IMG/VR virus record: IMGVR_UViG_3300026484_000105
Span: 45,993 to 109,992 of that record
Reading direction: 5' to 3' (one strand)
Source of the DNA: a virus
Length of the DNA: 64,000 nucleotides
Part shown: positions 1 to 49,576 of the stretch, in pieces
Layout: each line of letters opens with the position of its first letter
Numbering within the stretch: the stretch's first letter is position 1
Made by a program: the position numbers and the translations under genes
The notes under the pieces: model-generated
What the model saw: only the letters and a program-made list of their open reading frames with translations
Told to the model about the DNA's origin: nothing
The model's database searches: none

Positions 1-1047
1 ATTCTTGATGTAATCAATCTTATTAAGTTCCAAAAATATACGTATACGTTGCTCACCTTTAGATTCGCTACATAACGGACACCCAGCTTGTTTATGTATA
101 TGGTCATCAGGCGTAATTCTAAATTCACCATGTTTTTTACAAATTAATGTAACCTTAGTTTTCTTATTTGTATAATTAACCATACTATAATCATATCTAG
201 AACCGTGTAAATTTATAGCCTTCTCTATCCATTCTTTAGTAGTGTAGTTATAATTATTAGTACATTTAACACACTTAGCCCCATTATAATGGTTCCATGG
301 AATTTGTTCGAAATCACCATGTACCCTACATCTTATAGTAACCTTATTTTTTGAATTTATATATTTAGTTTTACTATAATCATATAGATCACCATGAACC
401 TTTCTCGAACGTTCTATAAATTCTTCTGTAGTTAATGTATCCTGTTCTACCCTACTTACGATACCGCATTGTTTACAGCCACTACCAGATATATGATGAA
501 ATCTGTTTTGTGTAAACTCACCATGTATCGGACAGATGATTTTTATACTACCATCCTTAACGCTATAGCTTTCTGGTATATATAAATACTTACCATTATG
601 CACTTTATTAGCTTTATCAATGAACTTCTTGGCCTTAGATAGAATCTTATTAATAGGAGTTATATAAGCGCATTTGGGACATCCCTGTCCTTTTATATGT
701 TTAGTTGGTTTTTGCTTAAACGGACCGTGTTCTTTACACTGTATAGTTACTGCAGTCCTTGCATCTATGAATTCAACTAATGTATAATTGTACCTATTAC
801 CGTGTGCTTCATGGGCCTTTAATAAGAAGGTTTCTTTTGTCATTCTTAATTTATCTTTAGCACATTCTCTACACCCTTGTTTATTCCGTATATGTGAAAA
901 TGGTCTTTGTTTAAAATCACCATGTATCGGACATGTGATTATTAGTGGTACGTCAGATAGTATGTACTCTGTTTTGTCGTACCTGTATTTGTTGTTATGT
1001 ACTTCTTTGGCTTTCTTTATAAAAGCTTCTGTTTTTGTTGTTTTCAT
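1..1047 (-). CDS. Homing-endonuclease-like zinc-ribbon repeat protein (3' end outside window)
   Basis: At least 349 residues from the ATG at 1047, open to the window edge. It holds five tandem units of about 60-75 residues with the pattern F..KA...H...Y.Y, C..HG.F.Q, then GC..C (for example CPIHGDF, CKEHGPF, GCPKC, GCPLC). After the fifth unit the chain enters KGEQRIRIFLELNKIDY, which resembles the start of the restriction-endonuclease-like domain seen at the C-terminus of similar phage and giant-virus proteins. Family knowledge: such zinc-ribbon-repeat proteins are often free-standing or intron-borne endonucleases. It lies 76 bases downstream of a beta' polymerase gene that ends at its active site and has its own early-type promoter (1068-1090). 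Endonuclease function is inferred; the catalytic part is mostly outside the window. Confidence 0.75.
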   Translation of the reverse strand, partial: MKTTKTEAFIKKAKEVHNNKYRYDKTEYILSDVPLIITCPIHGDFKQRPFSHIRNKQGCRECAKDKLRMTKETFLLKAHEAHGNRYNYTLVEFIDARTAVTIQCKEHGPFKQKPTKHIKGQGCPKCAYITPINKILSKAKKFIDKANKVHNGKYLYIPESYSVKDGSIKIICPIHGEFTQNRFHHISGSGCKQCGIVSRVEQDTLTTEEFIERSRKVHGDLYDYSKTKYINSKNKVTIRCRVHGDFEQIPWNHYNGAKCVKCTNNYNYTTKEWIEKAINLHGSRYDYSMVNYTNKKTKVTLICKKHGEFRITPDDHIHKQAGCPLCSESKGEQRIRIFLELNKIDYIKN

Positions 1048-1067
1048 TTTTTTCCTATTAGTTTATG

Positions 1068-1090
1068 TATGTAAATAATATGCGTTTATT
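1068..1090 (-). promoter_or_regulatory. Early-type promoter upstream of the endonuclease gene
   Basis: On the minus strand the element reads GCATATTATTTACATA, a variant of the CATATATTATTAATGTA core found upstream of genes starting at 30245, 52987 and 57310. It starts about 20 bases before the endonuclease ATG. It has no obvious hairpin after it, and it is a weaker match than the others. Confidence 0.4.
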
Positions 1091-1123
1091 ATCTATTTCA
1101 CTCTAATAGTACCCGTAAAAAAA

Positions 1124-2575
1124 TCAATCTGCGCCTAATAAATTTAGGTGGGTGAAGTGGGGTGATAACGAGTTCTGGTATGCCTCTGTTAATATCGGAT
1201 ATTCATAAACCGTATCAGCCTCTTTCCAATCTACTCCTAAAATGCTAACTTTTCTAGCCTTAACTGTTGTTTTTAGATAAGGTATACTTGGATATATTCC
1301 ACCTAGACCAGTAACAGGGTATCTAGTAAGAAAGCCAGGATATTTATCAACATCTTCATATACAGCTAAGTATATAAGTTCTGCATATGTTATCGGTCTT
1401 AAATATTTGGTATTTATATCATCAGGTATTTCATTAGTATTCTTAATAAACTTAACCTCTTTACCATTATCATATATTAAGGCTAGATAATAATCCTCAA
1501 CAGTTATAGGTTCAGATCTTAATTCATCTTGAGCTAATTTATTTATAACTCCATTAAGTCCTTCATCAGATGTCCACATGTCTTTTGTTTTTGGTTTTAT
1601 ATCTACATTTACTGTTCTCATAGATTTTTTATCTACAAGCATAGCTGTATTACTATGTAAATCAAATATGTTATTTAACATAAGATTATTTAACTGGTAC
1701 TTAGTAATGGGATTGATAGCTTTAGCATATTGATATAAACCTATAACAGTATTATTAAAACTAATTCTATTTTTAGTATTAGTTAAATCATGTATTACTG
1801 ATGGTACTGGTGTGATGACATTTCTGGTAGAATCTCTAAGAGCTCTCTTAGTCCACTTATTTTGTATAAATTTCTTCTTACCATCCATTAAAGAAATATA
1901 ATGATCGTATATCTCAACTATGATAGTTTGTATCTTAAATCTTATTGGATCTAATACCATAGGATCGTTATGTAGAGTAGAGATGTTTTCTAATGCATTT
2001 GTTGTGGTTAGTAGCCTCCTATAAACAGCATTTATTTCATCTTCACTTGGCTTACCATTATCATCAACAATATAATCCCTTAGTCCAGCAGGTATGACTA
2101 AAAAGTGATCTATGAGTATTTCACCCTTACTATATTTTTTAATAAGCTTTATTTTAAATTCCCTGGCATCACTACCATTACTATTTAATTTAATTTTATC
2201 ATACTTTTTCATAAAGAATTCGAAACCAGTATCTCCTTCTTCTGCATTAGAGGAAATGAAATCTCCACCTTTTTCATCCCATTTTGCATAAGTCTTACCA
2301 GATAGTATATCTAAATATAACTTTTTTAAACTTGAGATATGTTTAAAGACAAGTGGGTGTAGAACCTTTATATGTAATTTTATATAACCGAATTTATTAT
2401 TCCGTTCTTCACTTCCGACCCGACCGAAAGTCTCAGTAGAGAATAAACCATTAGTACTGAAGTTTTTAGTAGATGGTTCAAATATACTTAGGTCACTTAC
2501 TTCCCTCATTACACCTATCTGTTTTCTATTTAATAATAGTAAATCTATATTAAAAGGTGGTAAATTTGACAGCAT
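1124..2575 (-). CDS. RNA polymerase beta' subunit, N-terminal piece, ending just before the catalytic motif
   Basis: 483 residues. The N-terminus has the beta' signature FGRVGSEERNNKFGYIKLH followed by VLHPLVFKHI, which corresponds to the ER..R(F/M)GHIEL..PV.H segment of bacterial beta'. Later, RYPVTGLGGIYPS resembles the jumbo-phage beta' region upstream of the active site. The final residues HLNLLGAD align with the lead-in to NADFDGD, and the frame stops right there (TGA). Family knowledge: phiKZ-like phages encode split beta and beta' chains, and the beta' N piece normally contains DxDGD. Position next to the tape-measure/lysozyme gene matches phiKZ gp180 beside gp181, so this is probably the virion polymerase subunit (inference). 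The missing DFDGD suggests an intron or split gene. SD AAAGG precedes the ATG. Confidence 0.82.
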   Translation of the reverse strand: MLSNLPPFNIDLLLLNRKQIGVMREVSDLSIFEPSTKNFSTNGLFSTETFGRVGSEERNNKFGYIKLHIKVLHPLVFKHISSLKKLYLDILSGKTYAKWDEKGGDFISSNAEEGDTGFEFFMKKYDKIKLNSNGSDAREFKIKLIKKYSKGEILIDHFLVIPAGLRDYIVDDNGKPSEDEINAVYRRLLTTTNALENISTLHNDPMVLDPIRFKIQTIIVEIYDHYISLMDGKKKFIQNKWTKRALRDSTRNVITPVPSVIHDLTNTKNRISFNNTVIGLYQYAKAINPITKYQLNNLMLNNIFDLHSNTAMLVDKKSMRTVNVDIKPKTKDMWTSDEGLNGVINKLAQDELRSEPITVEDYYLALIYDNGKEVKFIKNTNEIPDDINTKYLRPITYAELIYLAVYEDVDKYPGFLTRYPVTGLGGIYPSIPYLKTTVKARKVSILGVDWKEADTVYEYPILTEAYQNSLSPHFTHLNLLGAD

Positions 2576-2644: not shown

Positions 2645-5600
2645 ATGGCTGCAGTTGATGATATAGATTTAGACGATATGGACTTTGAAGATGACGATAT
2701 GGATTTCGGCTTCGATGATCCATTTTCAGAACCACCACCTCCCAAGGATACGAGGGAAGCAGTAAGTAGAACTATAAATAAAGTAGGAAGTAGTTTTATG
2801 GATGACTTTACTGACGATAAGGCTGAAACAGCTGCTGCATTCGTTAAAGAAAGTATTCCAAGTAAGATAAGTGTAGAAGCAAATAATATAATTAATGTTG
2901 GAGAATCATTTAAGAAAGATATCTTAAAGTCTAGTTCGGAAGTAGCAGAGGCTACTAAACCAATGTTAAAAGCTATTGAAGGGTTGGTTCCTAAGGGTGG
3001 TAAGATAGAAACCCTAGTTAATCTAGCTAAAGAAAAACTAGGTATGAACGATGAGCATCGTACTAGTGAAGATGTTGCTGCTGATGCTGCTGCGATGGCT
3101 ACTAGTTCAGTAGTTAACGTTTTAGGAGAGATGCAAGATAGAGATACTATAAGAGAAACTATAACAGCATCTATAGCCGACAAGAAGACACAATCTCAAT
3201 TAGATCTAAGTGCTATTCAGGCAGGACACCTAGAAGCGATAAGTAATTTTAATATAGATGTAACTAATAGTTTTTACAGGAAATCATTAGAATTACAATA
3301 TAGACATTTATTTACAACAACAGAACAACTAGATGTTACTAAACAGGGTTTCGAAACCTTTAAAAATCAATTAGAATCAATCGTTGCTAACAGCGCATTA
3401 CCAGATTTAGTTAAAACAAGAAATTCAGAATTTATGAAACACCGCTTATTAGAAAGAGCTGGTGAGAGTTTATTTGCCAGAACAGGTGTCTTTGATAATA
3501 TAAAGAAAAGACTATCCAATGAAGTACAGGGTGTAACATCCGTATTAACTAGCGGTATTACTAGTCTTGGTGATGCTGCTGACATGGTTAAAAGTACTAG
3601 TGAGATGTCTGCTATGGCTGGCGGTACTGAAGGGATGGTCGGAGGATTACTTGCTGGTGGAGTAAGAGGACTAGTAGGTACTAAAGTAGGTGACATATTA
3701 GGTAAGACTAAGGTTGGTAAAAAAGGTATAGAACTAGTAAGAAATTTTAATCTAGATCCTTCCGAAGCACTTAAAGATATGGCTGATAATAGACCAGATG
3801 GTGTATTTAAAAACATATTAGAAACTCTTGGTGATTTTACTGAAAATAAAGATGCTGAAGCATCATATTCCATTAATAAAGTAGATCGAGATAATGTCTC
3901 AGTATTTGATGGTAGAGCACATACTTCTTTAACTAAGATCATACCTGGACTTTTATCTAAAATCCTAAAAGAAGTTAGTAGTTCAAGAACTGGTAAAGAA
4001 GAAGATGAGTTACGATATGATTATGATACTGGTACTTTTAAAACTACTAGCAGCTTAAAAAATGAAATAACTGAGAAGATTCAAAATGACCTTGTCAGTA
4101 GTGGCGTTAACAGAAACGTTGAAGGTATCATTACAACTATCGTTGAAGAAACTAATCTTAACGTAGACGATGATGAGATAGCTGAAATAAAACAAGCACT
4201 CCTAAGTTATGTTATTAAAGGTAAAAGACTACTAGTTAACAAACTTGAAGAAGATGGTCTCTACGACGAATTAGATCCTAAGTTATCTAAAAAATTTAAA
4301 AAAGCTATAACTGATTTTACAGAAACTAAAGATGATGATCTAAATTATAAAAGAGTTAGGCACCTAAATAATGAATTAGGATATATAAAGGATAGAGCTC
4401 CGTCACCTCAAGAACTACTTAATAAGTATTCTGATGCAGGTAGTATTGATCTTCTAAAAGATGCAGGTATAGTAGAACTTGATAGTGTTACAGGTGAATA
4501 CAAATTAGATAACGCTAGTTATAAGACACATATGACTACTGCTATTAAAACAGCTAAAGATAAAGATCAAGAAGAGGAAGAAGAACCTAAGACGATAGCT
4601 GAGAAATTAGCTGAAAAATATATCAAAAAGAAAAAGAAAGATGTAGATTCTATAACTCAAGAAGAGGAAGAAGAAGCTCCTATAAATAAAGGTTTTATAA
4701 ATAGAGCTAAAGGTAAAGTCTCTTCATTTGGTGGTACGATAGAACAGGACATCATCAATACTATAGATGGTAAGCACGATATAGGTGGTAAAGCTAAGCG
4801 GTTTGCTAAAGAGGCTAACAAATATGTTACAGGTAAAGAGGATCTATCTGGTTACAAATTTAGCACTGAATCTAATCTAAAAAACAATTTAGCACCACAG
4901 ACTAAACGCCGATCATTATTGGGTGATTTCAAAACAGTTAAAACAGAATTATCTGAAATACATTCTGTAGATGACGCTTTAAATAAAGCCAGAAATATAG
5001 ATAATTTCAAAGATACTGAAAGTAAAATAAAAGCTATAAATGATTTAGTGTCTTCTAGTAAAGATCCAAAGGACTTTATAGAAAAAATAAAAGAAACTGA
5101 TGATTATAAAAAATTATCTACAGATATAAAAAATCATATAGATAAACTAGAAAGTAAAGTGCCTACCGTAAAAACAGAAGCAAAGAAATTTGTAGAAGAT
5201 AGGGTAAGCGATTTAAAGGATAATTCGCATTATAAAAATATAGTAGAATCTGATATAGTAAAAGATTCTAAAGCTAAAGCTAAAACCTTAGTAAAAACAG
5301 TAAAAGATAGTAAGATAGTTTCCGATATAAAAGATTCTGAACTTGCTAATAAAGTCACAACTGATATTACTCTATTAAAAGATAGAGTATCCAAACTTAC
5401 GGAACTAACTGATCTTAATAACATAGTTACAGAATTATGGACTAAGGCATCTGAACATTATGATTATCTGGAAACTTTGGAAGATACAAAAAGTAATAGG
5501 GCTAAGAAAAAGGAACTCTATAGATATATAAGATTTTTAGAGAATATAAGATTAGATAAGCTTGATCCTAAAGATGCTAAGTTAAAGGTATCTAAAGCTA

Positions 5601-8600
5601 CTGTTAAATTAGGTAAAATACTTCTAACCAAAACAGCAGAAACATTTACAGAAACATCTAAAGATAAAGTAAGTAAAATTATAACTTCTAGTAAAGACAA
5701 GATAGAAGAAATAAAAGATATAGATGTTAGTAAGGTAAAAGACATTAAGGTATCTGATGCTACGCAGTATGCTATGGATACTGTAGTGACTGCTAAGGTA
5801 AAAAGTAAGCAGTTAAAAGATGACTTTAAGAAAACTGAACTATATAAATCAGCAGAAGATAAATATAAAACAGTAGAAAGTTCCATTAGTAGTAAAATAG
5901 ATAAGACTATAACCGTTACTAAAAAAGCAGAAATATTATCAGAAGTGGATAATGTACTACTTGATAATATAATAAAAGTACAGAAGTCTAATGTAGATGA
6001 GGTACTTAAAAAAGAGAGAATAAGCAAACTAAACGAGTCTAGACAAAAAATAAAAGCAGCTGATGTAAGTAAACTAAGACCAAAAGATTTAACTAGACTA
6101 GTTAGTGATAGTCTAAGTCCTTTAAAAGACATAATTACAGCAGATATAAAAACAAAAGCTTTGGATGCAAAAGATAATATATCAAGCAAAAAAGACGAGT
6201 TTATAAGTAAAGTACAGGATAAGGTACCTGCATTAAAAACTACTGGTAACTTTTCAGAACAATTAACTACAGCTAAAACATATACTTTAGATAAAGTAGA
6301 TACCGTAAAAGATACTACAACTAATATATTGCCTGCAATACCCAATCCTAATTCATTTAGTATAAATGATATTAAGTTAAAAATAGTAGGCTTCTTAGAT
6401 AAATCTTTTAAAGAGTTGGAGAAAGTAGAAGACTATTTAAATAAGAATCCAGATGAGGCTAAAGATAATTCTGACAAAGTAAATAAGATTAGAAAGAATT
6501 TAGCTACATTAAGAAATACAAATCCAGAAGATAAAGAAACTGTATCTACTCTTACAAAAACAATTAAAGAGGATATAGAATCACTAGTAGATAAGATTCT
6601 ACCATCTGAAAAACTTAGTAAGACATATAGTGCTGAAGATATAGAAAAAGAAAGAGCTAAAGATAGAGCTAAAGAGAAAGAAAGTACCGAGAACAGTCTT
6701 TTAGATATAATTAATTCTGATGATCCGTTAGGTACTCTTAAGAATAAGCTTAAAAGGGCTGCAACCAGTAGGATAAAATCCACTGCTACAGGTGCAGTTA
6801 AAGCAGCATTTAATTTTATTAAGAGAGATGCTGAAAGAGGTAAAAGACTAAGAAGTTATCTTAAAAAGAAATTATTCAATAAGAAGAAAACAGGTCCAGG
6901 GATACTCCATAGATCCTTAAATAAAGTACTCAATGCGACAGGCAAGGTAATCACAACTGTAGGTACCACTGGAGCAAATGTCGTAAAAGCGGATATCGAT
7001 AATGGTGAGAAACTAAGGGATAAATTAAAGAATCTATTTAATAAAAAGAGGAATACAGAAACTATAAAGGAAGATGTTCCTGCAAATAGAATAGATTATA
7101 AAGAAGAAAAGAAAAATGGTCCTGGTATAGTTGGGTCAGCAAATAAAGTAAATTCTGCTTTTGATAGGGACGGGTCTGGTCATAGAGATGGGTCATGGTT
7201 GGACAGACTTAAGAAAAAGAAAGATGTGCTTAAAAATAAGAATAAAACATTTTTAGCTAAAGCAAAAGATAGTAGTTTTAGTTGGTTGCCTATATTATTA
7301 GGAGCTTTTAGTTTTATTAAGCCGTTATTGAGTAAGTTGGTATCTGGAATAAAGAATCTTGGTAGTTTTATTGTTAAGGGTATTGGTAAGGCATTTAAGT
7401 CAGTTGGTAGTTTTCTATTAAATGGTATAAAAGGTATATTCGGTAGTCTTGGTAAAATGTTGGCTGGTCCATTGAATGCAGTAAAAGATGTAGCCTCTAA
7501 GGGTCTAGATAAAACTAAAGAATTAGCCAGTAAAGCAGCCGACAAAGTTAAGGGTATAGGTGCTGCTGTATATAATAAAGCTAAAACCTTCGGAAGTAAA
7601 GTAATTAATGGTATGAAGAATACCAAGGGTGGTAAACTTATTGCTAATGGTATTAAAACTACCAAAGATGCTATAACAAGTGTTGGCAGTAAAGCTATAA
7701 GTACTTTGGAAAATAGTAGAGTTGGAAAAGCTACTACTAAACTTGTTGGTAAAGCAGTAGAAAAGGTTCCCACTAAAAGCATCCTTAATTTATTGAAATC
7801 GTTTAAGTCTACAATATTTAAAAAGCTAGGTAAACGAGCAGGTAGTAAAGTTGCTGCTAAATTGGCTGCGAAAACTGCGGCTAGAGTCATTCCTTTTGCA
7901 GGTACTGCATTGTTGGCATATGATGCGGCTAAGATAGGTTATGATATGTTCCATAATGGTACTAGTCTTAAGAGTGCTATTTCTAAACAGATACTTGGTT
8001 TTGATTTATTTGGAGATGAGGCAGCTAAAGATGAAGATGGCAATCTTATTAAACCAGATGAAAAGGGTGTGACGAAGTCTAGTACTGGCGATCACATTGA
8101 TACAGAAAGAAAAGAGAGCAATAAGGAAACAGCTAAGGTTAAAGATGGGGATTCCATTAAACCAAATGAAAAGAGGGTAAAGAGATCCATTGTAAAAAGA
8201 CCTCCTGTAAAGAGATCCAGTACCGATGACTACATTGATGCTGAAAGAAGAGAGGACGATAAGGAAGCTGCTAGAATTGAAAGGGAATTAGTGAATAAGA
8301 AATTTACTGTAAAATCTAGAGATGTTATTGTAGATAAGTATGGTTCTACTATAAGAACGAGATCCAAAAAAGAGTTAATCGCAAATCCAGATGTCGATTC
8401 TAAAGGGGCAAATGGCATTAATAAAGTAGGTGGATCACCTGTTAAGATGGGAGGAATTAAAAACAAAGTTCTACCAATGACCCCTATTAATAATGAAAAA
8501 TTCAAACCTGTTTCAAAATACGATATTCTTAATTCGTTAGCTATTATACAAAAACAAATAGAAGTAGATAGGGGAAAACTCAAAAAGAGAGTAAACACAA

Positions 8601-10120
8601 ATGGCAAGATGGGAATGCTTAATGCGTCATCTTGGGTATTAGGTAGCATTATAGACGAGGTTAGCAATATACCAGACGGTCCTAACTTTACAATTAAGCT
8701 TAATGAGTTAGATAAGGATATGATTGATGTTGCGTCTTCTACCTTGGCTAGATATCCTAAAATAGATCTTAAAGCCATATTTAAGACAGGTAGAGTACAA
8801 AAGCTACCTAAACCAATTATAGAGAAAGAAGAAGTAAAAGAAAAAACTAGCGTATTTGATAAAGGATTAAATCTTTTAAATAAGGCTAAGAATAAAATAA
8901 CTTCATTCTTTGGTTTCAATTCAGATAAGAAGAAAGAAGCAACAAAAGATATTATATCTAATAATAAAAATAAGAAAGTAGGGACTGTAGCTAAAATAGA
9001 TAAGTTACCAGTTAATACAGGTGATTTAGTTAGTGACCTTAAAAGGGATGAGGGCGTAGTTCTACATACATATAAAGATAGTCTAGGTTTAAAAACCATA
9101 GGTACTGGTCACTTAGTAGATAAAAAAGGTGGTATTCCTTTACGTAAGATAATTGGTGAAGACAAAGATAAAATATCTATGGAGGAAAATGATTATATTT
9201 TACAATATGATATAGGTCAAGTTAGTAAAGATTTATATTCTAGGTTACCATGGCTTAAAGATAAGCCAGATAATGTACAGAAGTCATTAGTTAATATGGC
9301 CTTTAATCTTGGCGTTGACGGGTTACTTAAATTTAAAAATACTTTAAAAAGTATAAAGAATGATGAGTACACGAATGCTTCTAGAGGAATGCTTAATAGT
9401 AAATGGGCTAGACAAGTTGGTAACAGAGCTACTAGATTAGCTAGTATAGTTGCGTCTACAGAGTATGATTCTAACAGTACATCTAAGACTGAGAATAAAA
9501 CAGATAGTTCAGTTGCAAGTAAACCATCTATGAAATTAGCATCCAAAGTAAAAGATGTTGTGAGTCCTAGTAATAATGTTACTTATAATAAAGCTGGAAC
9601 AACTACCGTAAGATTTAATGGTAAAGATTTAAAATTAACTAAACAGCAAGCATCTGTTTTAAGTAATTTTAAGGCAAACGGTAAAACACAGGATGCTCTT
9701 AGTCTATTATCAAATATATCTAATGGACATAAAACAGATAGTCTAGTTAGTGTAGATAAAGATACTAATAAACAAAGAATATCTAAGACGTTAGCTATGA
9801 ATAGTGATACTAATAAGGTAATGTCTGTTGAAAGCAATAAAACACTTAGTGCTGTTGCAGAACATGGTGCAATACAAACAGATGAACTAAAAGCACTTAA
9901 TACCACAATGAAGACATCTCTTGAAATACAAAAAGAGACACTTAATGTAATTAGAGAGATGGTTGGTCATACTGGTAAGATAGTTGAACATAATAAAGAT
10001 AGTACTGCAGAGGGTGGTAGTGGTCAGAAAGAACACGAGCATCCAAATAAAGCAGTGCCAGCAATAGAAAAAGAAGTACCACAACCAGGTATCTTTTTAG
10101 AGAAAAGAAAATACGCATAA
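2645..10120 (+). CDS. Giant tape-measure-like virion protein with T4-type lysozyme domain
   Basis: 2491 residues, by far the largest gene here. Residues 1-30 are very acidic. Most of 130-1450 is charged, helical, repeat-like sequence rich in K, D, S and T (many variants of VKD.K and SKI). Residues about 1545-1610 (start WLPILLGAFSFIKPLL) and later Ala/Gly-rich stretches to about 1780 are hydrophobic, as in tail tape-measure proteins. Residues about 2125-2275 form a GH24 (T4 lysozyme) domain with E2136 in RDEG, D2145 in YKDSLG and T2151 in KTIGTGH, spaced as E11-D20-T26 in T4 lysozyme. Probable roles are tail-length ruler and local peptidoglycan digestion during DNA entry, as for phiKZ gp181. 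SD AAGGAG precedes the ATG; the gene is divergent from the polymerase gene. Confidence 0.85.
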   Translation: MAAVDDIDLDDMDFEDDDMDFGFDDPFSEPPPPKDTREAVSRTINKVGSSFMDDFTDDKAETAAAFVKESIPSKISVEANNIINVGESFKKDILKSSSEVAEATKPMLKAIEGLVPKGGKIETLVNLAKEKLGMNDEHRTSEDVAADAAAMATSSVVNVLGEMQDRDTIRETITASIADKKTQSQLDLSAIQAGHLEAISNFNIDVTNSFYRKSLELQYRHLFTTTEQLDVTKQGFETFKNQLESIVANSALPDLVKTRNSEFMKHRLLERAGESLFARTGVFDNIKKRLSNEVQGVTSVLTSGITSLGDAADMVKSTSEMSAMAGGTEGMVGGLLAGGVRGLVGTKVGDILGKTKVGKKGIELVRNFNLDPSEALKDMADNRPDGVFKNILETLGDFTENKDAEASYSINKVDRDNVSVFDGRAHTSLTKIIPGLLSKILKEVSSSRTGKEEDELRYDYDTGTFKTTSSLKNEITEKIQNDLVSSGVNRNVEGIITTIVEETNLNVDDDEIAEIKQALLSYVIKGKRLLVNKLEEDGLYDELDPKLSKKFKKAITDFTETKDDDLNYKRVRHLNNELGYIKDRAPSPQELLNKYSDAGSIDLLKDAGIVELDSVTGEYKLDNASYKTHMTTAIKTAKDKDQEEEEEPKTIAEKLAEKYIKKKKKDVDSITQEEEEEAPINKGFINRAKGKVSSFGGTIEQDIINTIDGKHDIGGKAKRFAKEANKYVTGKEDLSGYKFSTESNLKNNLAPQTKRRSLLGDFKTVKTELSEIHSVDDALNKARNIDNFKDTESKIKAINDLVSSSKDPKDFIEKIKETDDYKKLSTDIKNHIDKLESKVPTVKTEAKKFVEDRVSDLKDNSHYKNIVESDIVKDSKAKAKTLVKTVKDSKIVSDIKDSELANKVTTDITLLKDRVSKLTELTDLNNIVTELWTKASEHYDYLETLEDTKSNRAKKKELYRYIRFLENIRLDKLDPKDAKLKVSKATVKLGKILLTKTAETFTETSKDKVSKIITSSKDKIEEIKDIDVSKVKDIKVSDATQYAMDTVVTAKVKSKQLKDDFKKTELYKSAEDKYKTVESSISSKIDKTITVTKKAEILSEVDNVLLDNIIKVQKSNVDEVLKKERISKLNESRQKIKAADVSKLRPKDLTRLVSDSLSPLKDIITADIKTKALDAKDNISSKKDEFISKVQDKVPALKTTGNFSEQLTTAKTYTLDKVDTVKDTTTNILPAIPNPNSFSINDIKLKIVGFLDKSFKELEKVEDYLNKNPDEAKDNSDKVNKIRKNLATLRNTNPEDKETVSTLTKTIKEDIESLVDKILPSEKLSKTYSAEDIEKERAKDRAKEKESTENSLLDIINSDDPLGTLKNKLKRAATSRIKSTATGAVKAAFNFIKRDAERGKRLRSYLKKKLFNKKKTGPGILHRSLNKVLNATGKVITTVGTTGANVVKADIDNGEKLRDKLKNLFNKKRNTETIKEDVPANRIDYKEEKKNGPGIVGSANKVNSAFDRDGSGHRDGSWLDRLKKKKDVLKNKNKTFLAKAKDSSFSWLPILLGAFSFIKPLLSKLVSGIKNLGSFIVKGIGKAFKSVGSFLLNGIKGIFGSLGKMLAGPLNAVKDVASKGLDKTKELASKAADKVKGIGAAVYNKAKTFGSKVINGMKNTKGGKLIANGIKTTKDAITSVGSKAISTLENSRVGKATTKLVGKAVEKVPTKSILNLLKSFKSTIFKKLGKRAGSKVAAKLAAKTAARVIPFAGTALLAYDAAKIGYDMFHNGTSLKSAISKQILGFDLFGDEAAKDEDGNLIKPDEKGVTKSSTGDHIDTERKESNKETAKVKDGDSIKPNEKRVKRSIVKRPPVKRSSTDDYIDAERREDDKEAARIERELVNKKFTVKSRDVIVDKYGSTIRTRSKKELIANPDVDSKGANGINKVGGSPVKMGGIKNKVLPMTPINNEKFKPVSKYDILNSLAIIQKQIEVDRGKLKKRVNTNGKMGMLNASSWVLGSIIDEVSNIPDGPNFTIKLNELDKDMIDVASSTLARYPKIDLKAIFKTGRVQKLPKPIIEKEEVKEKTSVFDKGLNLLNKAKNKITSFFGFNSDKKKEATKDIISNNKNKKVGTVAKIDKLPVNTGDLVSDLKRDEGVVLHTYKDSLGLKTIGTGHLVDKKGGIPLRKIIGEDKDKISMEENDYILQYDIGQVSKDLYSRLPWLKDKPDNVQKSLVNMAFNLGVDGLLKFKNTLKSIKNDEYTNASRGMLNSKWARQVGNRATRLASIVASTEYDSNSTSKTENKTDSSVASKPSMKLASKVKDVVSPSNNVTYNKAGTTTVRFNGKDLKLTKQQASVLSNFKANGKTQDALSLLSNISNGHKTDSLVSVDKDTNKQRISKTLAMNSDTNKVMSVESNKTLSAVAEHGAIQTDELKALNTTMKTSLEIQKETLNVIREMVGHTGKIVEHNKDSTAEGGSGQKEHEHPNKAVPAIEKEVPQPGIFLEKRKYA

Positions 10121-46966: not shown

Positions 46967-49576
46967 ATGTCAAATAAAATAGAAGCCAAACTACCATCAG
47001 TTATAAATAAAAACAAGAATCTGGCAGCATTGGTAAGTAAATTGAACACAGATAATCGTACTAACGATGAAAAGAAAGCTATAAAAGTTTCAGGTCTGCC
47101 AGATATATCTAATTCTATAAAAGATAAGATAGCAAACAATGAAACTATAGTAAAGTTGTTCCCTGACATTGAGTTAAGTATACAGATAATGGTATCTTCA
47201 ATCTTGGCTCCAAATGATATGGGTAATACTAACCTAATTTATTCTGCAGATGGAATTGATTTACCAACTGATGTAAAAGCGGGTTTATTAGAGAATATTA
47301 AAACTTATGTATCAAGTAACTATAAACTTGAAGATAAATTAACAGATATAATAAGAGAAGCACTATTTACAAAGGGAGCATATATAGAAGCTGTTATACC
47401 TGAAGCATCAGTTGACAGCATGATTAATGCAAATGATGTAGATGATGTACCTTCTTTAGAAAGTTTGGTAGATGGTAACCTAAATAATTCAACTTTAAAG
47501 ATATTTAAAGAAGATAAAGAAAAGAGATTTACGTATTCTTTAGAAGATATGGATCTTAGTGTTGCTAGAGATAGGAGTGCTGCAAATGTAACATTAGAGG
47601 TAAGTGATGAGGATTTAGGTATAGCAGTTACAGATAACTTTGCTATATTAGGTGCAACTGTTAAGATGGCTAATATTGTTAGAGATAAGGTTAGTTTGGA
47701 AGCTCTAGACAAATCCATAGATAACGATGATGCGGATTTCTTCAATAAGTTATTTAAACCAACTCCTATGCATAAAGATGCTACAACAGTAACAGTATTA
47801 ACATCTGATGAAACTGATAGAGCATCTGTAGGCAAACCCCTAATAATGAAGTTACCAGTAGAAGCTACTATACCAGTATATATAAGTGGTGATGCAACTA
47901 AGCACTTGGGTTATTTTGTATTACTAGATGAAAAAGGTGTTCCTGTTGTTAGTGGTTCTGACTGGTCTATTGACGAAAAGGAATTAGATCAAACACAACA
48001 AAAGAAAGCTAAAAGTATAATTGATAAGGCATCTGCTGCAATAAACGGTTATAGTAAAAAGAACCCGAAGATGGAAAATATTGAAGAGATTTATGGACAT
48101 ATAGTAGATCAGAGACTTAAAGCAAAATTAGCAAATAGTTTATTAGGCGACTTAGCTGATATAAGTGAAGACAACAGTGAAGCATATAGAACTATGCTAA
48201 CCAGAGTTTTAGCTAAACAAAAGACAAAGATACTTTTCATACCATCTGAACTAGTAGCCTTCTATGCATTTAAATATAGGGATAATGGCACAGGCGAATC
48301 TTTACTTGAAACTATATCAGTATTGTCGAGTATTAGAGCCATACTATTATTTGCTAGGATAATGGCCAATATTAAGAATTCTGTTACAACGACTGAAATA
48401 AGTGCTACACTAGATGAGAAAGATCTAGACCCCACTAAAACTATGGAAAAGATCATCTCTGAAGTTATGAAAAGTAGAGGTACCCAAATGCCTATAGGTG
48501 TTACTAGAGTAGAGGATCTCGTTGATTGGACTAAAAAAGTAGGTTACAAGTTTAACTTTAAACATAGTAGTTTACCAGATATGGATATAAGTACTAATGA
48601 AGAAACTACTTCTAAAGCCATACCAGACTCCGATTTAGATGAAGATATTCGTAAACAGATATTAATGTCTTTCTCGTTACCTCCAAAGGCAGTAGAAGAT
48701 GGTTATGATAGTGATTTTGCTACTACTATAGTACAAAATAACCTACTATTTACAAAAAGGGTTATGATGCAACAAGATATACTTATGCCCTTAGTTACTA
48801 AACATGTTCGTATATTATTGAAAAATGATATGGATATCTTCAATGCTATTAAAGCATCTATAGAAAAAAATATCAAGCCTATAATAAGAACTCTTAAGAA
48901 GAGTAAAGATTCTATTATAGGTAATAAAAGGATAAATGAAGATAAACTAATCAATTGGTTAACTACAGCTTATATTAATAATATTGAAATTAGGTTACCT
49001 AGAATAGAAGAACATGAAACAGACAACATGAAAGAAGCCTTCGATAACTATAAGGAAAGTATAGAAGACTACATAGAGATATTCTTTAGTGATGAGGCTC
49101 TTCCAGAAGAGTTGGCTGGCGAGTTATCTGGCAGAATGGAGGATTTTAAAATGGCTATGCAAAATACATTTTTAAGAAAATGGATGGCTGATAATAACTA
49201 TTTACCAGAAGCGCTTAATTCAACAACATTAGATAAAGATGGTAATCCTGTATTTGATGTATATGGCAATTATGAGACTTACTTAGATTCATTCTCTAAG
49301 GTACTTATTCCATTTATTAAAAAGAACAATAAGTTAAAGGAGACAATAGATAAGAAGCTAGCTAAACTAGACGGTGATGGTGAAGCAGATGACAATGACG
49401 ATTATGAATCTGATAACGACAATGTTCAAGATGATGATCCAGATAACAGCGGTGATGATGATGGAGCCGAAAATGAACCTAACGGTGATGGTGGAGATGG
49501 AACTGAAATCGAAGATGAACCTAACGGTGATGGTGGAGATTCTGAAGCAGATCCAGTTGAAGCAGAAAAAGAATAG
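46967..49576 (+). CDS. Portal protein
   Basis: 869 residues, close to the length of phiKZ gp129. Portal-like core near 560-620: PDSDLDEDIRKQILMSFSLP then GYDSDFATTIVQNNLLFTKR and VMMQQDILMPLV, corresponding to the part that binds DNA and contacts the next subunits. The C-terminal 65 residues are highly acidic with two copies of ENEPNGDGGD/EDEPNGDGGD. The dodecameric ring at the head vertex is the DNA entry and exit channel. No terminase gene is present in this window. SD AAAGGA. Confidence 0.78.
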   Translation: MSNKIEAKLPSVINKNKNLAALVSKLNTDNRTNDEKKAIKVSGLPDISNSIKDKIANNETIVKLFPDIELSIQIMVSSILAPNDMGNTNLIYSADGIDLPTDVKAGLLENIKTYVSSNYKLEDKLTDIIREALFTKGAYIEAVIPEASVDSMINANDVDDVPSLESLVDGNLNNSTLKIFKEDKEKRFTYSLEDMDLSVARDRSAANVTLEVSDEDLGIAVTDNFAILGATVKMANIVRDKVSLEALDKSIDNDDADFFNKLFKPTPMHKDATTVTVLTSDETDRASVGKPLIMKLPVEATIPVYISGDATKHLGYFVLLDEKGVPVVSGSDWSIDEKELDQTQQKKAKSIIDKASAAINGYSKKNPKMENIEEIYGHIVDQRLKAKLANSLLGDLADISEDNSEAYRTMLTRVLAKQKTKILFIPSELVAFYAFKYRDNGTGESLLETISVLSSIRAILLFARIMANIKNSVTTTEISATLDEKDLDPTKTMEKIISEVMKSRGTQMPIGVTRVEDLVDWTKKVGYKFNFKHSSLPDMDISTNEETTSKAIPDSDLDEDIRKQILMSFSLPPKAVEDGYDSDFATTIVQNNLLFTKRVMMQQDILMPLVTKHVRILLKNDMDIFNAIKASIEKNIKPIIRTLKKSKDSIIGNKRINEDKLINWLTTAYINNIEIRLPRIEEHETDNMKEAFDNYKESIEDYIEIFFSDEALPEELAGELSGRMEDFKMAMQNTFLRKWMADNNYLPEALNSTTLDKDGNPVFDVYGNYETYLDSFSKVLIPFIKKNNKLKETIDKKLAKLDGDGEADDNDDYESDNDNVQDDDPDNSGDDDGAENEPNGDGGDGTEIEDEPNGDGGDSEADPVEAEKE

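Follow-up and report, generated by a model that had tools for sequence, protein, structure and literature searches.

Predicted group I introns at the catalytic DxDGD codons of the virion RNA polymerase beta' gene in phiKZ-like phages

Introduction

Introns in the virion RNA polymerase (vRNAP) genes of phages are already known. In addition, an intron carrying an endonuclease ORF interrupts the polymerase gene gp71-72-73 of phiKZ, and the locus described here resembles this gene in being a jumbo-phage polymerase gene with an intron of this type. The genes differ, because gp71-73 corresponds to the C-terminal half of the beta subunit of the non-virion polymerase (PMC4666361), while ours is a beta' gene; the first-pass annotation of this DNA, which cited gp71-73 as a parallel for beta', was mistaken on this point.

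Among the vRNAPs themselves, the subunit scheme published for SPN3US, phiKZ, and 201phi2-1 shows introns (PMC5105663), and in PhiPA3 the vRNAP beta gene contains a putative group I intron whose endonuclease, gp210, nicks the beta gene of phiKZ and lowers phiKZ progeny (Birkholz et al. 2024, PMC11620839). Our locus shares with PhiPA3 an endonuclease-bearing intron, predicted in our case, among conserved-aspartate codons of a phiKZ-like vRNAP gene. However, the PhiPA3 intron follows NDD in beta and encodes an HNH enzyme, whereas ours lies in DFDGD of beta' and encodes an EDxHD enzyme. In the record of Pseudomonas phage EL, ORF185, located after the truncated beta' (ORF184), is annotated as a putative intron-encoded HNH endonuclease; here, too, beta' is interrupted within DxDGD by an ORF-bearing intron, but the insertion follows the second aspartate (+6), the enzyme is of the HNH type, and the core is distant from ours.

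Two further systems are relevant. Proteins of PHROG 559 (VSR/EDxHD), the family to which our endonuclease belongs, are encoded by group I introns in the terminase genes of Bastillevirinae (PMC11878797), i.e., in another host gene and another phage group. Tandem group I introns have been described in Twort orf142 and Coxiella 23S rRNA, with internal exons of 23 nt and 34 nt (PMC10136302); the tandem introns discussed below also flank a very short exon, but this has 12 or 6 nt and encodes catalytic residues.

As far as our literature search reached (the genome papers of EL, 2005, and AR9, 2016, lay outside it), we found no account of DxDGD as a hot spot with several insertion positions, of EDxHD introns at this motif, or of 6- or 12-nt exons between group I introns. 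The term "unreported" in the first-pass annotation is correct in part only, given PhiPA3 beta (PMC11620839) and the ORF after the truncated beta' of EL.

Sequence Data and Scope

The window, a stretch of 64,000 nucleotides, corresponds to C1:45993-109992 of a 109,992-base viral record (contig C1), which is a metagenomic fragment, and the bases to the left of the window were read as well. The beta' loci were gathered with four alignment queries, by matching patterns in exon 1 with the catalytic motif excluded; single-protein scans of IMG/VR had returned one relative only, and alignment queries were used instead. The core of the beta' intron was detected with RF00028, both in a local scan and in a family search of the whole contig. 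Insertion offsets take the end of the first aspartate codon as zero. The features are collected in Table 1.

Table 1. Features of the beta' and beta loci and of interrupted DxDGD motifs; positions refer to the window unless a contig or locus is named.
Feature	Position or loci	Strand	Basis or remarks
beta' ORF, apparent	2575-1124	minus	483 aa, ends LNLLGAD then TGA
Exon 1, vRNAP beta' N-subunit gene	1126..2575	minus	ORF; PHROG 2986; L005
Group I intron (predicted), 5' part; 1999 nt overall	1..1125, on to C1:45119	minus	U^...G^ solution; L005
Candidate internal guide sequence 5'-GGTACT	1108..1113	minus	candidate, read from the sequence
Endonuclease ORF, 482 aa	C1:47039-45591; first 349 aa = 1..1047	minus	zinc-ribbon/DUF723 repeats + EDxHD nuclease
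Group I core	C1:45455-45167	minus	RF00028, full model 1-253 aligned, 42.5 bits
Exon 2, beta' N gene	C1:45118-44952, left of window	minus	starts inside F codon of FDGDKCS
Divergent neighbor, 2491-aa ORF in place of PhiPA3 gp213 tail-fibre gene	2645..10120	plus	ORF + gene order
Second group I intron (predicted), 561 nt, ORF-less, vRNAP beta gene	C1:38136-37576 (L002:2137-1577), left of window	minus	RF00028, 63.9 bits
Interruption at offset 0	phiLC/U5, Vibrio 2 TSL-2019, L167, L149, L153, L105, L176, L340, L051, L103, L039
Interruption at offset +1	window, L005, L028, L030, L031, L248
Interruption at offset +2	L074, L292
Interruption at offset +6	EL
Interruption at offset +9	Aeromonas phages ACP1, PS2, AhC3_1
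Aeromonas +9 insert, 256-258 nt	L012:5441-5698; also L013, L014, L344, L345		between Gly and last Asp codons of DFDGD
Tandem introns (predicted), L044/L339	6435-7441 of L339		GAT^intron^TTC GAC GGA GAT^intron^ACC; 12-nt exon FDGD
Tandem introns (predicted), L050	6447-7200		GAT^intron^TTC GAT^intron^GGT GAT; 6-nt exon FD
Tandem introns (predicted), L062	6447-7342		GAT^intron^TTC GAT^intron^GGT GAT; 6-nt exon FD

The Interrupted beta' Gene

The first-pass annotation noticed a beta' frame that stops right before DFDGD and, 76 bases downstream, an endonuclease-like gene with zinc-ribbon repeats; both are present as described, the latter as an ORF that starts at 1047 and runs past the window edge. 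The last base of exon 1, whose 3' end is GGC GCA GAT T, is T1126, the first base of the Phe codon in DFDGD, and the apparent stop is the TGA at 1126-1124. The bases to the left of the window, where that annotation proposed to look for the rest of the gene, do contain such a coding sequence: exon 2 reads ...AACG^TT GAT GGT GAT AAA TGC TCA..., encoding (F)DGDKCSYVILHTKEAIDELHETFRKRSFYITPEGNLTYSASNTVIDIVAKTLSW and a stop. With respect to PHROG 2986 (RNA polymerase beta subunit, 539 positions), exon 1 spans positions 3-484 (E=4e-164) and exon 2 positions 491-537 (E=9e-6). Because these ranges adjoin, the two exons are complementary pieces, and their match to one beta' gene is far beyond chance.

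When the 1999 nt between ...GCAGAT-T^ and ...AACG^ are excised, ADFDGD is restored, and the result is a protein of 538 aa that aligns over its full length, DxDGD included, with phiKZ-like vRNAP beta' N-subunits at about 40% identity or less, and can thus be assigned to them (295 records matched, 279 phage records covered to at least 80%, best identity 40%). The order tail gene, beta', beta is that of PhiPA3 gp213-gp212-gp211, although with extra genes between beta' and beta, and it is for this order that the enzyme is regarded as the virion RNA polymerase. The interval between the two subunit genes, C1:41288-44857 (L002:5289-8858), holds genes absent from that spot in PhiPA3; by eye only, the motif HLTEHLCF of a plus-strand ORF is M16-peptidase-like, and a short ORF resembles nucleoside deoxyribosyltransferases.

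On the minus strand, exon 1 is followed by the endonuclease ORF, then by about 470 nt with the group I core, and finally by exon 2. This core, which the first-pass annotation suggested seeking after the endonuclease gene with a covariance model, was matched by RF00028 (E=1.7e-9 locally and 7e-11 when the whole contig was searched), at a score below the Rfam gathering cut-off of 50 bits and with the full model aligned. RF00028 gave one other match only in the whole contig, in the neighboring beta gene; scanned with Rfam defaults, the remainder of the record, window included, gave no match. Under the boundary rule of an exon-final U and an intron-final G, the solution that restores xDGD is unique, GATT^G...ACG^TTGATGG. 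A candidate P1, in which GGTACT would pair with the exon end AGATT leaving one bulged A, is conserved in the window and in its relative L005, and folding did not reproduce it. Collectively, the core and the boundaries support the reading of the interruption as a group I intron inside the Mg2+-binding DFDGD codons, after GAT-T.

The 482-aa ORF matches PHROG 559 (E=6e-88) and DUF723 (E=3e-14), and no solved structure was matched by it in a sequence search. Residues E371, D373, H377, and D397, as well as K400, are invariant in four intron ORFs. The EDxHD signature, E-x-D-G-x-x-H plus a downstream D, is found in the PHROG 559/DUF723 ORFs at offset +1 (window, L028, and L030); the ORFs at offsets 0, +2, and +6 are HNH enzymes of PHROG 59, and the offset-0 intron of L153 holds an additional second ORF that is PHROG 559-like.

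The 79%-identical relative L005, from an independent 206-kb contig, has the intron at the same base with identical boundaries. The 5' intron sequence is common to both, and the endonuclease ORF of L005 is cut down to remnants of both ends, with the start codon gone. Among the 27 pairs of the 3' core shared by the two folds, both of which were predicted from these same sequences, 3 have changed on both sides and 0 on one side, as expected if the intron RNA is still under selection to fold. A core tree groups the two introns with support of 100/100.

For the +1 site, we found no allele that lacks the intron and has near-identical flanks; the comparison can be made at the neighboring base, offset 0, where an intron of 1443 nt is present in the Pseudomonas phages phiLC, U5, and PhiPizzaParty, their beta' halves being deposited as hypothetical proteins. 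The joined flanks of phiLC, which has the intron, and KTN4, which does not, are identical at 180/180 nt across the predicted junction, which argues that the predicted junction is exact, that such insertions are clean, and that this insertion is recent or actively mobile. Together with the RF00028 core, the FDGD-restoring exon, and the endonuclease-less intron of L005, this empty site bears out the initial suggestion of an intron in the beta' active site.

Interruptions at DxDGD in Other beta' Loci

The gathered loci form 183 clusters at 95% DNA identity, and about 28 of them hold genes interrupted inside or directly before xDGD, a frequency that refers to interruptions at xDGD and, as the sample was ranked by similarity, is not an unbiased one. 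Splice solutions were obtained for 27 of the 29 distinct interrupted loci analyzed, and they fall at six positions (0, +1, +2, +6, +9, and +12) within the same 12 bases. In the loci with a single intron, exactly one xDGD-restoring U^...G^ solution exists (24/24, window included). The core tree is poorly resolved (13 of its 25 inner branches are open), and independent insertions can therefore be counted as a lower bound only. These sequence comparisons mark the DxDGD codons as a hot spot of intron insertion.

Three loci have tandem introns at xDGD, separated by an exon of 6 or 12 nt. Rfam matched both cores in L050 and L062, and in L339 the second. The two introns of L339 are the nearest kin of each other (100/99), which suggests a local duplication as their origin, while each intron of L050 and L062 pairs in the tree with the corresponding intron of the other phage. 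A different kind of insert is seen in L069, where 46 nt with a hairpin (TAATG...TTTAG, L069:6353-6398) lie between GACTTTGAT and GGTGAT and directly precede a group I-like intron at +12; this insert is too short to be a group I intron itself.

The +9 insert of the Aeromonas phages has no match in Rfam. Its alignment shows a covarying structure, with double changes at 21 pairs, and by eye a P7-like pairing GCGTA/TACGC (GCATA/TATGC in AhC3_1) and the P3-P7 pseudoknot order can be recognized. It is probably a group I intron, and possibly a diverged one below the reach of Rfam.

Predicted Introns in beta and in Other Phages

The second predicted intron of the contig interrupts the Leu codon that follows NDDPKR; the insertion point of PhiPA3 gp210 lies ten bases upstream. 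When ...GATGATCCAAAGAGGT^ is joined to ^TAAACTTTATTAAT..., the product is NDDPKRLNFINIQNSHTIGMSEMRVPAVRTG, as in the uninterrupted beta of L005, which has no intron at the NDDPKR site.

Group I cores are also present about 4 kb downstream in several beta'-interrupted loci (L248:10290-10593, L103:10278-10559, L062:10909-11198, and L167:10621-11078); in L062, the frame before this core ends at NDD, as in PhiPA3, so that introns in beta and beta' may occur together. Separately, two unannotated segments, OMKO1 117593-117673 and fMGyn-Pae01 49406-49486, resemble the window intron in its group I core, which suggests unrecognized introns in these Pseudomonas jumbo phages.

Alternative Readings

A broken beta' beside an endonuclease ORF could also be a true split gene, in which separate chains, one ending in LGAD and the other carrying DGD, jointly form the active site, as the first-pass annotation envisaged. 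Jumbo-phage RNA polymerases do elsewhere consist of several chains (PMC7598289), and an in-frame GTG lies 63 nt upstream of exon 2 in the window phage, but this GTG sits in the P9 region of the intron and has no ribosome site. Exon 2 of L005 has no in-frame start at all, and none is found upstream in 19 of the 28 interrupted loci; on these grounds the two-chain active site was rejected. Moreover, the tails past GAD are random in both length and sequence, and in intron-less relatives one chain spans the site, so that a split gene appears highly improbable. Still more remote is a pseudogene or an assembly error placing a broken beta' next to a free-standing endonuclease gene: the contig is indeed metagenomic, but the same junction recurs in L005, exon 2 is in-frame and conserved, the intron RNA pairs are maintained by compensatory change, and the same motif is interrupted in the sequenced isolates U5, PhiPizzaParty, phiLC, Vibrio phage 2 TSL-2019, and EL.

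The intron could instead be real but immobile, with an endonuclease that is inactive or acts elsewhere, and be inherited vertically. The nearest relative keeps the intron with the endonuclease deleted, and the close kinship of the two introns in the core tree is what vertical inheritance predicts. Against this, the 482-aa ORF is intact, including the conserved nuclease residues, and the ORFs of the +1 introns in L028 and L030 have been retained as EDxHD-type; we regard immobility as rather unlikely. We are highly confident in the joint reading, that of a group I intron in DFDGD which would be spliced out to give one subunit and would spread by homing.

In this mechanism, the intron RNA would excise itself, joining GCAGATT to TTGATGGTGAT, and the spliced transcript would be translated into a continuous 538-aa subunit with its active site intact. 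The EDxHD endonuclease would then make its cut at or close to the catalytic codons, in intron-less copies of the motif in co-infecting relatives, and the intron would be brought in by homing when the cut copies are repaired. By analogy with PhiPA3 gp210, the endonuclease may also harm the co-infecting phage. The catalytic codons make an ideal address: they are nearly invariant, and an intron lost imprecisely from them would leave the enzyme dead.

Significance

These comparisons indicate that mobile introns repeatedly use as their address, at several positions, those codons of a multisubunit RNA polymerase that are most immutable. They would carry the case of PhiPA3 and phiKZ, where one co-infecting phage uses an intron nuclease as a weapon against the other, over from beta to the catalytic center of beta'. 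For genome annotation, the consequence is that several deposited jumbo-phage genomes present the truncated exon 1 as a whole protein and leave the catalytic exon unannotated. Homing and interference can be tested directly with the near-identical cultured phages phiLC, which carries the intron, and KTN4, which lacks it, and the tandem introns offer natural 6- and 12-nt exons for studying the splice-site fidelity of group I ribozymes.

Whether the 12 bases of xDGD are, beyond this, a contested landing site is in our view an evenly balanced question. Such a site would have drawn at least two unrelated endonuclease families to six positions, with moves to neighboring positions inside one gene, as the tandem sisters of L044 may reflect, and with pairs of introns between which catalytic residues are confined to an exon of 6 or 12 nt. 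If exon skipping does occur at the tandem sites, it would produce an in-frame but catalytically dead subunit, and the accuracy of splicing could gate the activity of the polymerase.
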